Assembly: GCA_000621985.1 (NCBI GenBank)
Contig: JHWW01000009.1
Location: 62,001 to 126,000, forward strand
Direction of reading: 5' to 3'
DNA length: 64,000 bases
Source of the DNA: Lachnospiraceae bacterium V9D3004
GTDB lineage: Bacteria > Bacillota > Clostridia > Lachnospirales > Lachnospiraceae
Shown here: piece after piece, positions 8,625 through 13,162 of the stretch
Position numbering within the stretch: position 1 is the stretch's first letter
How the letters are laid out: each line of letters starts with the position of its first letter
Program-made: the position numbers and the translations under genes
The notes under the pieces: generated by a model
Database searches by the model: none
What the model was told of the DNA's origin: nothing
Seen by the model: the letters and a program-made list of their open reading frames with translations, nothing else

Positions 8625-10625
8625 TCACCAATTAAAGCAATCTCCCGCCAGTGATTCGAGAATACATCCCGATGCCCAGGGCATCAGCGCAAACCATGTG
8701 CTTGAGACGCTGCCGTCCGGATAGTGCTCCGTAAGAAGTCCTTCACTGTGGCAGAATCTCTCGGACATCCATCCTTTGAGACCATAATCATATTCTTTAT
8801 CAAAAGTATTATATGTCTGGCAACCCCACAGGAGTACATCATCAAGTCTTGATTTAACATAGTCGTCATCCCTGTGTTTTGTATAATATAACATCTCATC
8901 AGCGACAGTACTTGACATGGGATGAATGTGTGGATTGGCTGTTGAAGTGATGCTTCCTCCGCAGCTTGACCAGCCAACCTTACTGAGTGGCGGAACTTTT
9001 ATAGGAGAGTTGTAACAGAACTTGAAAGTGAATTCATATGAAAGCGCATCTCTCATATGGTCAAGGTACACCTCGGCACCGGTCATCATATGCAGATGTT
9101 TCATAGCTCTTATATATGCAAGCACGCCTTCGGAGTCCACAGCCTTATCCGTATCAAGAGGCGCACCGTAGCATGATACTTTACTTATGTAAGCGTCATA
9201 ATAATGCTTTTCACTCTCCTGAAGACTCTCAAGATAAGTTATATCATCATTTAACACGCTGAAATATGCGATTGCGGCAAGGCACCATGCCCCGGCAAAC
9301 GAATCATATTCGATTCCCGCGCCGGTCTCTGCCGACAACATGTATGGATATTCTTTGTCAAGATTTCTGGTAAAAGCAAGTCTTCTTACAATATCTTCGG
9401 CAAAATCCATCCAGTCGTCATGGATGACGAACTTGACATTCTTCTCGTACTCGTACGCCTTACACAGATAATAGATCGCCTGTCCGACAAGATAAGAGGA
9501 ATGTCCGGGAGTACGAAGACTCTCATACCACCAGCCTCTGTTGCTCCACACACCATCATTACAGGAATCAAAAGGAAGTCCCGACTTGGGATTGATGGAA
9601 TTGTCCACCATGTTCTGCATGAATGTTAAAGCATGTTCCCTCATAGTCTCATTGCCGATCCTGTAAGATGCCAGAAGCATGGGGAGTGCAACAGCCATTC
9701 CGTTTGTCCATGATATGGACGGGATCTTATTGTATGAAAATGATCCGTCTTCTCCTTCAAACACGAAACCTGTATATGCATTATCCTCCGCGATCCATGC
9801 ATCACGATCAACGGCACCTGCTATGTCGGATACAGCCGTCAGAATATCCGAAGCACTTCTCGGAGACTCATGATACATACCGTATACATATCGTAAGACA
9901 TTATACAACTCCATCTCATCTTTAGATATATATTCAAATATCATTATATCGAACGAAAGCGTCTCTCCCGCTGCGATCGTATACGAATTATCATCATCAA
10001 TTGTTTTTCTGTCATATACATTATGGGACTGTAAAAAGAACCATGGAGCGTTCTCATAACCTATCGTATAACCGATGTAACCATCTTCCACCGAACAGGT
10101 ATAACCGCAATATTGAACAAAATCACCGTCTGTACCCGGGCTCCACGGAGTCACTTCCCCCGAACCTGTACGCACAAAATAAGGAGCTGCCGCTATACCG
10201 TACATAAGTCCGTTATCATATGCAAACACAGCCGGATGGGACAGCCTGTCACTTCGAACCATCCACCAGGGAGAAGCAGGCTTATCAAGTCCTCCCCTTC
10301 TGATCCTTGGGAATTTTGCATTAACATGAAGAGGTGCCTCACCCCTGTTACTGCCATACATGAATCCCGGCATATAAAACTGCGGATCAGCCATAACCTT
10401 CTTATTCTCCGGGGAGGCACCCTTATTTCTCCCGAACATATACTTTGTATGAATAACGCCCTGCCATGTATCACCTGTCTTATTCGCGATACTGATCCTC
10501 TTGACAAACGGCGAAGCAGGATTTCCCTCTCCTCCTATATCCTCAACTGCCACCTCAAGCCCGGCATTCAGGATATCGATATACTCATTCCCACCTTTTG
10601 CTGCTGCTTCAAACTTCAACTTCAT
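8625..10625 (-). CDS. probable alpha/alpha-barrel glycoside hydrolase, cytoplasmic, family unclear
   Basis: About 666 residues without signal peptide. The first 230 are beta-rich; residues 260 onward are a series of helices with many aromatic and acidic residues (SYLVGQAIYYLCKAYEY, YDSFAGAWCLAAIAYF, SSTWFALMPWASGCILESLAG), which resembles six-hairpin glycosidases that act on oligosaccharides. No single catalytic signature was recognised, so the substrate and GH family are not assigned. The ATG at 10625 is chosen because AAAGGAG lies 8 nt upstream; the longer frame from 10685 would overlap the TetR stop. It follows the TetR gene by 56 nt and precedes lacZ, consistent with a sugar-use locus. 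Confidence 0.55.
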   Translation of the reverse strand: MKLKFEAAAKGGNEYIDILNAGLEVAVEDIGGEGNPASPFVKRISIANKTGDTWQGVIHTKYMFGRNKGASPENKKVMADPQFYMPGFMYGSNRGEAPLHVNAKFPRIRRGGLDKPASPWWMVRSDRLSHPAVFAYDNGLMYGIAAAPYFVRTGSGEVTPWSPGTDGDFVQYCGYTCSVEDGYIGYTIGYENAPWFFLQSHNVYDRKTIDDDNSYTIAAGETLSFDIMIFEYISKDEMELYNVLRYVYGMYHESPRSASDILTAVSDIAGAVDRDAWIAEDNAYTGFVFEGEDGSFSYNKIPSISWTNGMAVALPMLLASYRIGNETMREHALTFMQNMVDNSINPKSGLPFDSCNDGVWSNRGWWYESLRTPGHSSYLVGQAIYYLCKAYEYEKNVKFVIHDDWMDFAEDIVRRLAFTRNLDKEYPYMLSAETGAGIEYDSFAGAWCLAAIAYFSVLNDDITYLESLQESEKHYYDAYISKVSCYGAPLDTDKAVDSEGVLAYIRAMKHLHMMTGAEVYLDHMRDALSYEFTFKFCYNSPIKVPPLSKVGWSSCGGSITSTANPHIHPMSSTVADEMLYYTKHRDDDYVKSRLDDVLLWGCQTYNTFDKEYDYGLKGWMSERFCHSEGLLTEHYPDGSVSSTWFALMPWASGCILESLAGDCFNW

Positions 10626-10681
10626 AGATGCTTCTCCTTTCGCGTATCCGGTGTGCCAATTCATTACCCTGTTATATGATC

Positions 10682-11383
10682 TCATTCCCTTTCACTGCTT
10701 AATCCGACTCCCAAAGCGGTTCTTCCGCGGATATACCTGTAAGGAATGTCTTTTACGTCTCTTCCGTGAAGCAGTGTGCCTTCCTCACTTGGCTTCACAC
10801 CACAATAACGGTACTGTCCGGATCTGTACAACGATACAAGCCCGGCAAACTCCTCTCCAATCATTACTTCAAGCTCTTCCTGAGTAAATGAGCACACTCT
10901 TCTTGAACACAATAATCCAATCCCATAAGAAAAAACCATCATATTCTGAAAAAGCTTCCATGCCAGTTCCTCGGAAAGCTCATAATCCCTAATTATCACA
11001 GCGACCACCTGATCGGGATTATCATAAAGTTCGCTTATCGCATCTTTGAGCGAATTGCCCGGTGTAGTCTCCTTTGTGAAAAGAAGCTGAAACAGTTTTG
11101 GTTCATCTATTGCGAATTTGATCATCTGCATTCCGAATCTCTTAAATGCAGGCGTATAATTGTTAAAATCATCAACGTATTGTCTGAATATGGTCTTTGC
11201 TGCGGCAACAACCTCTCTGTGTACCTCATCCATATTTTCAAACGCAGTGAATATAGGTCTGGAAGAAATCCCCATTCTTGCGCCCAACTCTCTTGCGGTC
11301 ACAGACTCGATTCCTTCGTTTCTTGTCATATCAAGTGCAACGTTAAGGAATTGCTCTCTTGTATATTTTACCTTTGGCGGCAT
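10682..11383 (-). CDS. TetR/AcrR-family transcriptional regulator
   Basis: About 233 residues. The N-terminal helix-turn-helix is clear: YTREQFLNVALDMTRNEG, then SVTARELGARMGISS and FTAFENMDEV, as in TetR DNA-binding domains. The remainder is a helical ligand-binding region with an aromatic-rich helix (LFQNMMVFSYGIGLLC). TetR proteins usually repress nearby genes until a small ligand binds. The start at 11383 has GGGGAG 11 nt upstream; an ATG at 11392 abuts that site and overlaps the previous stop. Neighbours are the membrane protein upstream and the probable glycosidase downstream, so either group may be its target. Confidence 0.85.
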   Translation of the reverse strand: MPPKVKYTREQFLNVALDMTRNEGIESVTARELGARMGISSRPIFTAFENMDEVHREVVAAAKTIFRQYVDDFNNYTPAFKRFGMQMIKFAIDEPKLFQLLFTKETTPGNSLKDAISELYDNPDQVVAVIIRDYELSEELAWKLFQNMMVFSYGIGLLCSRRVCSFTQEELEVMIGEEFAGLVSLYRSGQYRYCGVKPSEEGTLLHGRDVKDIPYRYIRGRTALGVGLSSERE

Positions 11384-11388
11384 TGAAG

Positions 11389-11904
11389 TCATCTCCCCTT
11401 TTTACGAAATATCTTGCCATATTTTCTCTGAAACATTACATAGGCTCTGTCATATACTATCCAGAACACCTCTCCTGCAGCTATAACTCCGGCAATGAAC
11501 AATACATCTCCGAGTCCGAAAAAATATCTGTATACCAAAAGCGCCGCCACAAAAAGAATCTGAAAGGCCAGACATTTCAATCCCCACATTAGTCCGGTTT
11601 TCATACCTTTCTTAAACCTGGCAGCCTCCAGATATTCAGCTGCAAGTATATATATACTAAAACACAAAAAAGTTAAGCAGTACAACTTGTCCGGTGCAAG
11701 CATGAATCCTGCCGCAAATGAAGCGGCCGTATGAAGTAACCCTAAAACAAACGAGCAGTTATATTCAACCACCCCTGTCAGGTATGCCCCGGCAGCAAGG
11801 AAAAATACCGTACTGCTGTCAATATAACATCCAAGCATGATAAATATTACAGATAATGCCGTCATTATCCCGGCAAATGCGATATCATTCGACTTTAGAT
11901 GCAT
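11389..11904 (-). CDS. small integral membrane protein, unknown function
   Basis: About 171 residues with five or six hydrophobic segments and a basic tail ([14 protein letters not shown]). The spacing of helices and small size recall ECF-type substrate-binding membrane proteins, but no diagnostic motif was recognised. The ATG at 11904 has GGGAGGAG about 10 nt upstream and lies inside the 3' end of the DnaJ-type gene (10-nt overlap), so its translation should be coupled to it. It is the third member of a coupled trio with DUF5685 and DnaJ-Cys genes. Confidence 0.6.
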
Positions 11905-12326
11905 GAACACAGATCTCCTCCCATACATTCGCACAACGTGTCAGCGCACCAGAGATCACAGCAACAGTCACAACATGAATAATTACCGGAACCGCTCCTT
12001 CCGTAATATTGTCCGTTCTGATCATATTGCTGTCTGTTTGTATTATTATAATCAGTATTATTACCTGTATTGTTATAAGTATTGTTATATGAATTGTTAT
12101 TATAATAACCGCCGTTTGCGTATGGATTGCCTCTTCCCTCACGCATATCCATTATCTGACGGTATGCTTCCTGTACTTCCTTGAACTTCTCTTCGGCAAG
12201 ATCAGCAAGCGGATTATTCGCATATGCATCCGGATGGTATTGTCTGCTGAGCTCCCTGTATGCCTTCTTGATCTCAGCATCACTTGCATTCGGAGATACC
12301 CCAAGTACCTTGTACGGGTCTGTCAT
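11895..12326 (-). CDS. DnaJ-domain protein with Asn/Tyr linker and cysteine-rich tail
   Basis: 143 residues. Residues 4-65 are a J domain with the HPD motif at 31-33 ([11 protein letters not shown]), which stimulates a Hsp70 partner. A low-complexity Asn/Tyr/Gly stretch follows (about 70-115). The last 26 residues hold ten cysteines ([25 protein letters not shown]), suggesting metal binding or a disulfide knot. There is no zinc-finger region as in full DnaJ and no signal peptide. The ATG overlaps the DUF5685 stop by 4 nt (ATGA). Function is unknown; a chaperone role for the DUF5685 product is an inference from coupling. Confidence 0.8.
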
Positions 12327-13162
12327 ATTTCCTGTTCCTCCTTTGACGGACTTCCTTTCATCTTATCAAACCGGTTCCATACTCCGGCATATAATATATT
12401 CCCCAATATATCCGCATACCTGACACACGGAAGCTTCTCGTAGGCAGCAGCAGCTTCTGCCATATCGTTATGCAGCATATCCTCCACGTATTCGTGGTAA
12501 TCTTCCCTGTTCATGTATGCCTTAAGCGGATTATAATTATCTTTCTTAATATCCTCTTCAATATCGTCATATGCATCCATTATATATATAAACCTACCCA
12601 AATGAAAAGCTAATTTTTCAAAATAATCCGAAAAAATATCTTTTTTATACAAAAAAAGTCCTTTCATCAGCTCTCCAAAGCAGTCTGCAAGCCTATCAAT
12701 GCCAACATTTTCCATTTTTTCAAGTTCAGATAAACGATTTAAGGAATCAACGATACATTTTTCCTGTTCTTCATACAGTCCGGATGCTTTTTTCATTCTC
12801 CGGTTATATAATCGCATACCAAAATATGCTTTTTTCGAATGTTCATCCTTATAATCATCTTCAAAATGATAATATGACAGTATGATATTCATATGAGCAG
12901 CATAATCGGTCGCATCGCTTATATTGTATAAATGTTTTTTGGCAGGATGTGTAATACATCTTCCTTTATAAGACCTCACCGGCATATCATATACCGATGT
13001 TAGCAAGATTATCAGAAAAGTCATGTCATACGTTAAGGTAAGCTGACCCGTAAAGCCGTAATTCTTCTTTAACAGACTGCATAATCCGCAATAAAAACCT
13101 CTGTATGTATCATAATCTTTGATCTTAAGTTCAGGCTTGCGAATCTGCACATAACCAAACAA
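12323..13162 (-). CDS. DUF5685-family protein, prenyl-synthase-like motifs
   Basis: 279 residues, mostly helical. I recognise the DUF5685 opening ([29 protein letters not shown]). Possible metal ligands are C25xxC28 and C69xxH72. Two acidic clusters, [11 protein letters not shown] (97-107) and [18 protein letters not shown] (195-212), resemble the paired Asp-rich motifs of squalene/phytoene-type prenyl synthases, though the sequence is not otherwise like a known one. Translation starts at TTG 13162 with GGAGG 7 nt upstream. It heads the coupled trio with the DnaJ-Cys and membrane proteins. The biochemical role is unknown. Confidence 0.75.

Follow-up and report, generated by a model that had tools for sequence, protein, structure and literature searches.

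A DUF5685 protein that models as an isoprenoid-synthase fold and its cysteine-tailed J-protein partner in Lachnospiraceae bacterium V9D3004 and related bacteria

An isoprenoid-synthase fold with Asp-rich motifs that acts on amino-acid side chains is found in ComQ, PalQ, the P domain of ChrPC, and Ord1, the last of which farnesylates free Trp. In polyprenyl synthases the sequence GGKRxRP forms the isopentenyl-diphosphate site, and in cysteine-string protein lipid is carried on the cysteines of the string. PMC13290415 describes the characterized trans-IDS-like enzymes, ComQ among them, as all modifying Trp and as sharing a Gln immediately ahead of the second Asp motif. Farnesylation of Hsp40 in eukaryotes is treated in PMC8262983, small Cys-rich tail-anchored proteins of eukaryotes (CYSTM) in PMC10217909, and the existence of a bacterial farnesyltransferase is given as largely unknown in PMC8669142. 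DUF5685, the subject of the present analysis, is like the ComQ group in its Asp-rich motifs and predicted fold, and the J-protein encoded beside it is like Ydj1/DNAJA1 and DNAJC5 in combining a J domain with C-terminal cysteines, which are sites of lipid attachment in those eukaryotic proteins. The arrangement of a J domain followed by a Cys string is that of cysteine-string proteins, but the resemblance to these and to the farnesylated Hsp40s is one of layout and not a shown relation of the tail sequences; also, unlike in the farnesylated Hsp40 system, the candidate modifier is encoded next door. The fold of the eukaryotic farnesyltransferase differs from that predicted for DUF5685.

The window, a 64,000-nucleotide stretch of contig JHWW01000009.1 of Lachnospiraceae bacterium V9D3004, carries the genes for DUF5685, the J-protein, and a membrane protein (M) on its minus strand in one overlapping cluster (Table 1). 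A sequence-only reading of this DNA had described a 4-nt overlap of the first two genes, a membrane-protein gene starting 10 nt inside the J gene, ten cysteines in a 26-residue tail, and CxxC, CxxH, and two Asp-rich motifs in DUF5685, and these particulars were borne out: the overlap is at 12323–12326, the membrane gene has an ATG at 11904, although other in-frame starts exist (GTG 11910, ATG 11928, and GTG 11934), the cysteines fall in J-protein residues 118–143, and the DUF5685 motifs are C25/C28, C69/H72, D102xxxD106, and D196xxxD200xxxD204. The start codon of DUF5685 is TTG, which fits the MFGY beginning of the family. The cluster goes beyond the three genes listed in that reading, continuing with a TetR-like gene and then a 686-aa open reading frame that matches nothing in Pfam or NCBIfam. 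Relatives of these two genes were not found in 80 close loci (see below), so that they look like a local extension and are probably outside the module.

Table 1. Positions in the window of the genes and motifs of the DUF5685 cluster
Feature	Coordinates	Strand	Basis
DUF5685 gene, 279 aa, isoprenoid-synthase-fold protein (model)	12323..13162	-	PF18937 E 8.7e-97; AF2 pLDDT 93.7; Foldseek
C25-G-x-C28 motif of DUF5685	13079..13090	-	both Cys in 153/153 sequences with a residue there (154 aligned)
C69-x-x-H72 motif of DUF5685, beta hairpin in model	12947..12958	-	C69 153/153
First Asp-rich motif of DUF5685, D102xxxD106	12845..12859	-	154/154
Second Asp-rich motif of DUF5685, D196xxxD200xxxD204	12551..12577	-	154/154
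J-domain protein with Cys tail, 143 aa	11895..12326	-	PF00226 E 4.1e-20
J domain with HPD	12147..12320	-	PF00226, residues 3-60
Cys-rich C-terminal tail, type A	11898..11975	-	ten Cys in 26 residues
GGAGG, the tail's Gly-Gly codons; candidate Shine-Dalgarno of membrane gene	11917..11921	-	
Six-helix membrane protein, ECF S-component-like	11389..11904	-	AF2 pLDDT 93.8, Foldseek; ATG 11904 taken as start
TetR-like gene	10682..11392	-	4-nt overlap with membrane gene
686-aa ORF	8625..10685	-	4-nt overlap with TetR-like gene

The DUF5685 protein matches PF18937 with 324 bits against a cut-off of 26.7, over profile positions 1–272; in the literature covered by a full-text search the name turned up in one paper, as a bare list entry, and among 14 control genomes the profile matches one, that of Thermotoga maritima. 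The AF2 model (pTM 0.90) was compared with known structures using Foldseek, and the best 50 of 425 matches (E up to 10) are all of isoprenoid-synthase type, with probabilities of 0.72–1.00, TMq up to 0.58, and weak E-values (best 1e-2, none below 1e-3); Ord1 (9v4g, 9v4j) and MoeN5 are among the matches listed. Profile-profile comparison by hhalign with an alignment of 154 DUF5685 sequences gave P values of 6e-4 against isoprenyl diphosphate synthases (IPPS) and 1.3e-3 against squalene/phytoene synthases, as compared with 0.4 for an unrelated control, at hhalign probabilities of only 18–29% for the two families; with a shallower alignment of 74 closer sequences (A2), the corresponding P values were 0.08, 0.0065, and 0.29. 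The family profiles PF00348 and PF00494 do not match DUF5685 at E up to 1, a single-sequence search returned no solved relatives, and a profile search of solved structures returned four non-isoprenoid matches (E 0.019–0.84). DUF5685 models as a divergent member of the all-alpha class I isoprenoid-synthase fold, and it is likely that this fold is one that uses a prenyl diphosphate. The sequence-only reading had likened the Asp motifs to those of prenyl synthases and would have dropped the idea had the structure lacked such a fold; the AF2 model and the Foldseek matches both give a fold of prenyl-synthase type.

Residues D102, D106, Y193, D196, D200, and D204 are invariant in all 154 aligned sequences, and C25, C28, and C69 are kept in every one of the 153 sequences that have a residue there; H72 is kept in at least 90% of A2 but is lost in distant members. 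The retention of all five Asp of both motifs, in distant sequences too, argues for catalysis. DUF5685 is like the PF00494 and PF00348 families in having two Asp motifs in the same order, which hhalign aligns with theirs, but unlike them it escapes their profiles, lacks a GGKRxRP-like stretch, and has an additional CxxC together with C69 in a hairpin; it should be noted that the IPPS aligned, 22 out of 24, were picked by GGKRxRP, so its invariance among them is by construction. The protein also differs from the ComQ type, since there is no conserved Gln before the second motif, where Tyr193 is found in 154 of 154 sequences, and since the Cys triad is added. In the model, C69 and H72 are in a hairpin that precedes a helix with D102 near its far end, and the triad may therefore be distant from the Asp motifs, which speaks against catalysis at the triad. 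In the 154-sequence alignment conservation of Lys or Arg nowhere exceeds 85%, which makes a second diphosphate substrate seem unlikely, whereas in the closer sequences of A2 K13 and R254 reach at least 90%.

A scan of genome contigs yielded 595 relatives, of which the best 80 loci were kept, a set biased to close relatives, mainly Lachnospiraceae. A J-protein gene lies downstream of DUF5685 in all 80, with a gap within 60 nt in 74, and each of the 79 complete J-proteins has at least five Cys in its last 60 residues, the eightieth (L098) being cut at a contig end. About 1.4–1.5 kb is inserted between the two genes in L046, L050, and L057, and 409 nt in L059; the insert of L057 holds an open reading frame that by eye resembles a MATE-type transporter. 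Among 61 genomes (relatives and the organism's own) there are 29 DUF5685 genes in 28 genomes, 25 with a J-protein alongside; of the other four, one (L022) has a J-less tail gene upstream, one (L026) has its neighborhood cut by a contig end, and for L024 and L028 no tail protein was seen nearby. In a more even sample of 398 genomes drawn from the phylum, the organism's own included, DUF5685 is present in 45, and all 45 neighborhoods were read: 40 have a Cys-tail protein next to DUF5685, one (L146) has the tail as part of DUF5685 itself, and four (L148, L149, L150, and L152) have neither; these four are divergent, the match in L152 being partial with an internal stop; L151, L153, and L154 are likewise divergent yet have the tail. 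A profile of the TPR-like part plus tail matches 43 of the 398 genomes, and 32 of the 33 matches that reach model position 101 or beyond are in genomes with DUF5685, whereas the other 10 cover the TPR part only and 9 of these are in genomes without it; these genome-level counts are raw, with kinship not factored in. DUF5685 and the Cys-tailed protein very probably constitute a conserved functional module. The concern that homologues might mostly be found apart is answered by their joint occurrence in 80 of 80 close loci and in 41 of 45 phylum genomes, the one fusion counted. Of the three genes, the DUF5685 and J-protein pair recurs in order (80/80), but the membrane protein, which marks one version of the system only, is present in 53 of the 80 loci. 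Beyond these, and Z (24 loci; see below), the next most recurrent cluster of neighbors is in 8 of 80 loci and mostly on the opposite strand.

A J domain is present in 35 of the 40 adjacent tail proteins; the other five (L137, L147, L151, L153, and L154) have the tail and a TPR-like stretch without one. In one of the loci, L118, the J domain and the Cys tail are in two frames, the gene being split in that assembly, and the parts were counted as having both. Because of these five J-less neighbors and the fusion in one lineage, it is the tail that is the constant partner of DUF5685, with an optional J domain; that the domain can be absent is seen from the distant lineages, since none of the 80 close loci lacks it. 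The suggestion of the sequence-only reading that a J-domain protein loads a substrate fits less well with these observations, whereas its description of a metal-binding or lipid-modifying unit is plausible.

The J-protein of the window does not have the TPR-like part found in most of its relatives. HPD is present in all 80 relatives, in two of them as WHPD, and the full-length profile of canonical DnaJ, TIGR02349, is not reached (62.8 bits against 377.2); elsewhere in the same genome a 393-aa open frame also matches the J domain. The tails of 53 loci are of type A (CxCxGGD), in which L-11, D-7, C-4, E-3, G, G, D, and C+6 are all invariant, the acidic residues D-7, E-3, and D+2 stand between the tail cysteines in 53 of 53, the chain ends exactly five residues past GGD, and a Cys occupies position -2 in every case, this last feature being partly forced in the overlapping genes by the ATG of the membrane gene. 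Eighteen hand-picked distant tails also end five residues after the motif with Cys at -2, but the fixed end is not common to all distant tails (L132, L136, and L138–L145 differ). A fixed end with Cys recalls the CaaX and Rab motifs. Type B tails are hydrophobic and Cys-rich, and those inspected have few acidic residues. Within their last 26 residues, 39 of the 53 type A tails and 3 of the 26 type B tails carry a Trp; when the stretch is widened to 45 residues, the numbers are 40 and 17, respectively (L098, cut by the contig end, left out). Thus, in contrast to the acceptors of the Trp-modifying systems, 22 of the 79 tails are free of Trp over these 45 residues and 57 have one, so that Trp is no general acceptor, although its modification in some tails is possible. 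The many Cys, often alongside Asp, Glu, and His, are more than a lipid anchor requires.

The membrane protein has six helices in its AF2 model, and among the 50 Foldseek matches listed, the high probabilities (0.89–0.99; TM-score 0.57–0.65) all belong to RibU S-components, but the E-values are 0.33–1.7. M may be similar to ECF S-components in its predicted fold and, as in RibU, has six helices and about 170 residues; it is unlike them in these E-values, in its weak matches to PF12822 (two of the 48 members with E up to 1 allowed, the best 0.0022), and in that no ECF ATPase was found, judging sequences by eye, among neighbors recurring in at least 8 of the 80 loci. The type A tail and M go together in 53 of 53 loci and the other 27 show neither, L098 being counted there because its contig ends. 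In 24 of these 27, a small transmembrane protein with a zinc ribbon (Z; Zn_ribbon_4 E 2.5e-4, below its cut-off) is encoded upstream of DUF5685, and in several distant genomes Z is downstream of the J gene. The 80 loci divide into 49 with M without Z, 24 with Z without M, 4 with both, and 3 with neither; those with both are L079, L082, L089, and L095. The M profile matches 25 of the 398 genomes, 24 of which have DUF5685, even where the two are unlinked, and the 25th (G161) is a partial, weak match in a 594-aa frame.

In one bacterial family (G197 and G478, the only genomes of that family listed with DUF5685), DUF5685 bears the Cys tail, here rich in His, Cys, and Asp, at its own C terminus, and the fusion gene and a PF00348 gene (E 2.9e-49 and 3.5e-49) apparently form one operon. 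In this synthase the first Asp motif is kept and the second reads NDLNN; a polyprenyl synthase adjoining DUF5685 was seen in that one family only. A four-gene row of the fusion, a small protein without Pfam match, the polyprenyl synthase, and a type IV leader peptidase-like gene is found at L228:8553-11488 and L240:3038-6066.

Gene order, overlap, co-occurrence, the fusion, the model folds, and the invariant Asp and Cys form the observed basis for the following proposal. DUF5685 would bind a prenyl diphosphate through its two Asp motifs and would attach a lipid to the cysteines at the C terminus of the tail protein, or act on them in another way. The modified tail would hold the J or TPR part at the membrane; its docking partner there may be the ECF-S-like protein or, in other genomes, the transmembrane zinc-ribbon protein, and the J domain would then recruit DnaK to the membrane. 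That a lipid or isoprenoid action of DUF5685 on the tail fixes a co-chaperone at the membrane is put forward tentatively, and that the tail is the acceptor of an isoprenoid is, to a similar degree, a possibility that falls short of being probable. The more specific version, a bacterial cysteine prenylation in which DUF5685, with its own putative Cys metal site, prenylates the Cys-rich end of the co-chaperone, must be considered doubtful. The family gains a predicted fold, a presumed active site that is intact, a constant partner, and a candidate for the substrate. Were the tail prenylated, bacteria would have a route to prenylated protein cysteines that parallels the eukaryotic farnesylated Hsp40 with an unrelated enzyme and differs from the trans-IDS-like prenyltransferases, all characterized ones of which act on Trp according to PMC13290415. 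The Cys tail may tether a chaperone helper to the membrane in bacteria related to Lachnospiraceae.

The strongest competing explanation, ranked after lipid action, is that the tail binds metal. The Cys/Asp-rich tail and C25/C28/C69 would bind Zn or Fe-S and store or hand over the metal, with the J domain serving assembly, as in the parallel of HscB. The ten Cys in 26 residues of the window's tail, the invariant acidic residues between type A cysteines, the His/Cys/Asp-rich fused tail, the three invariant Cys of DUF5685, and the zinc-ribbon protein as alternative partner are all consistent with such a unit, which would pair an isoprenoid fold with a co-chaperone that handles metal, also an unexpected combination. 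It leaves unexplained, however, the invariant Asp motifs and the PF00348 neighbor, and the type B tails inspected are poor in acidic residues; we consider it rather unlikely. It is less likely again that DUF5685 makes a small isoprenoid in the manner of a terpene synthase, with the tail protein chaperoning or scaffolding it to a membrane protein that moves or holds the product. The DUF5685 fold and Asp motifs agree with this, as do the partner resembling ECF S-components, a fold known for small-molecule binding, and the want of Lys or Arg above 85% in the deeper alignment; K13 and R254 in A2 speak against the last point, and neither the conservation of the tail end nor the fusion of the tail to DUF5685 would be accounted for.

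The tail could also be a plain hydrophobic, or S-acylated or disulfide-bonded, membrane patch, and DUF5685 a non-catalytic binding partner that has kept its fold, which would suit the hydrophobic, Cys-rich type B tails and has a eukaryotic parallel in cysteine-string proteins; the five Asp kept in 154 of 154 sequences, distant ones included, point to catalysis and make this improbable. A separate question is whether the link between tail type and membrane gene reflects translational coupling alone, the GGD being kept as Shine-Dalgarno codons. A start codon stands exactly at -10 inside the J gene in 52 of the 53 loci with a membrane gene, and further in-frame starts at -16 (44/53) and -34 (50/53) mean that the -10 start is a choice and not proof. 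In 51 of 53 the two Gly codons of the tail motif supply the GGAGG that precedes this start, and GGA is used at the motif Gly in 51 of 53 as compared with 32% at other Gly of the same genes; of the two exceptions, L050 and L059, the latter has no -10 start. In the 18 hand-picked distant tails, however, Gly-Gly-Asp is kept in 17 whereas the first of its Gly codons is GGA in only 5; in several of these loci the next gene begins after the J-gene stop, and GGD is kept with other Gly codons where no gene overlaps (e.g. L123, L131, and L133). Coupling therefore explains the codon choice and not the amino acids: the Gly codons seem adapted to coupling, and the residues themselves retained for the protein. 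Mere translational coupling was rejected as the full explanation by the distant tails and is highly improbable.

Some observations concern the wider occurrence of these elements. A DNA pattern for CECxGGD matched this tail alone in the window's genome, and among the 61 genomes 10 have one match each, five of which read as chance matches and five as real tails, the latter all adjoining DUF5685. Eight tails, which share Cys-richness with CYSTM, had no match to the CYSTM profile at E up to 10, and one strict pattern for the CIRCE heat-shock element had no match in the 80 loci. Seven genomes of one family have the M gene far from DUF5685, and in both neighborhoods read it adjoins a gene that by eye is TagO/WecA-like; at L225:2969-3481 and L226:2932-3444 the unlinked M homologue overlaps this gene and lies beside a CheR-like gene (names by eye). 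At L130:1-3783, the J-tail gene is followed downstream by the start of an open reading frame that by eye is DnaK-like, which hints that the J-protein of this locus works with DnaK.
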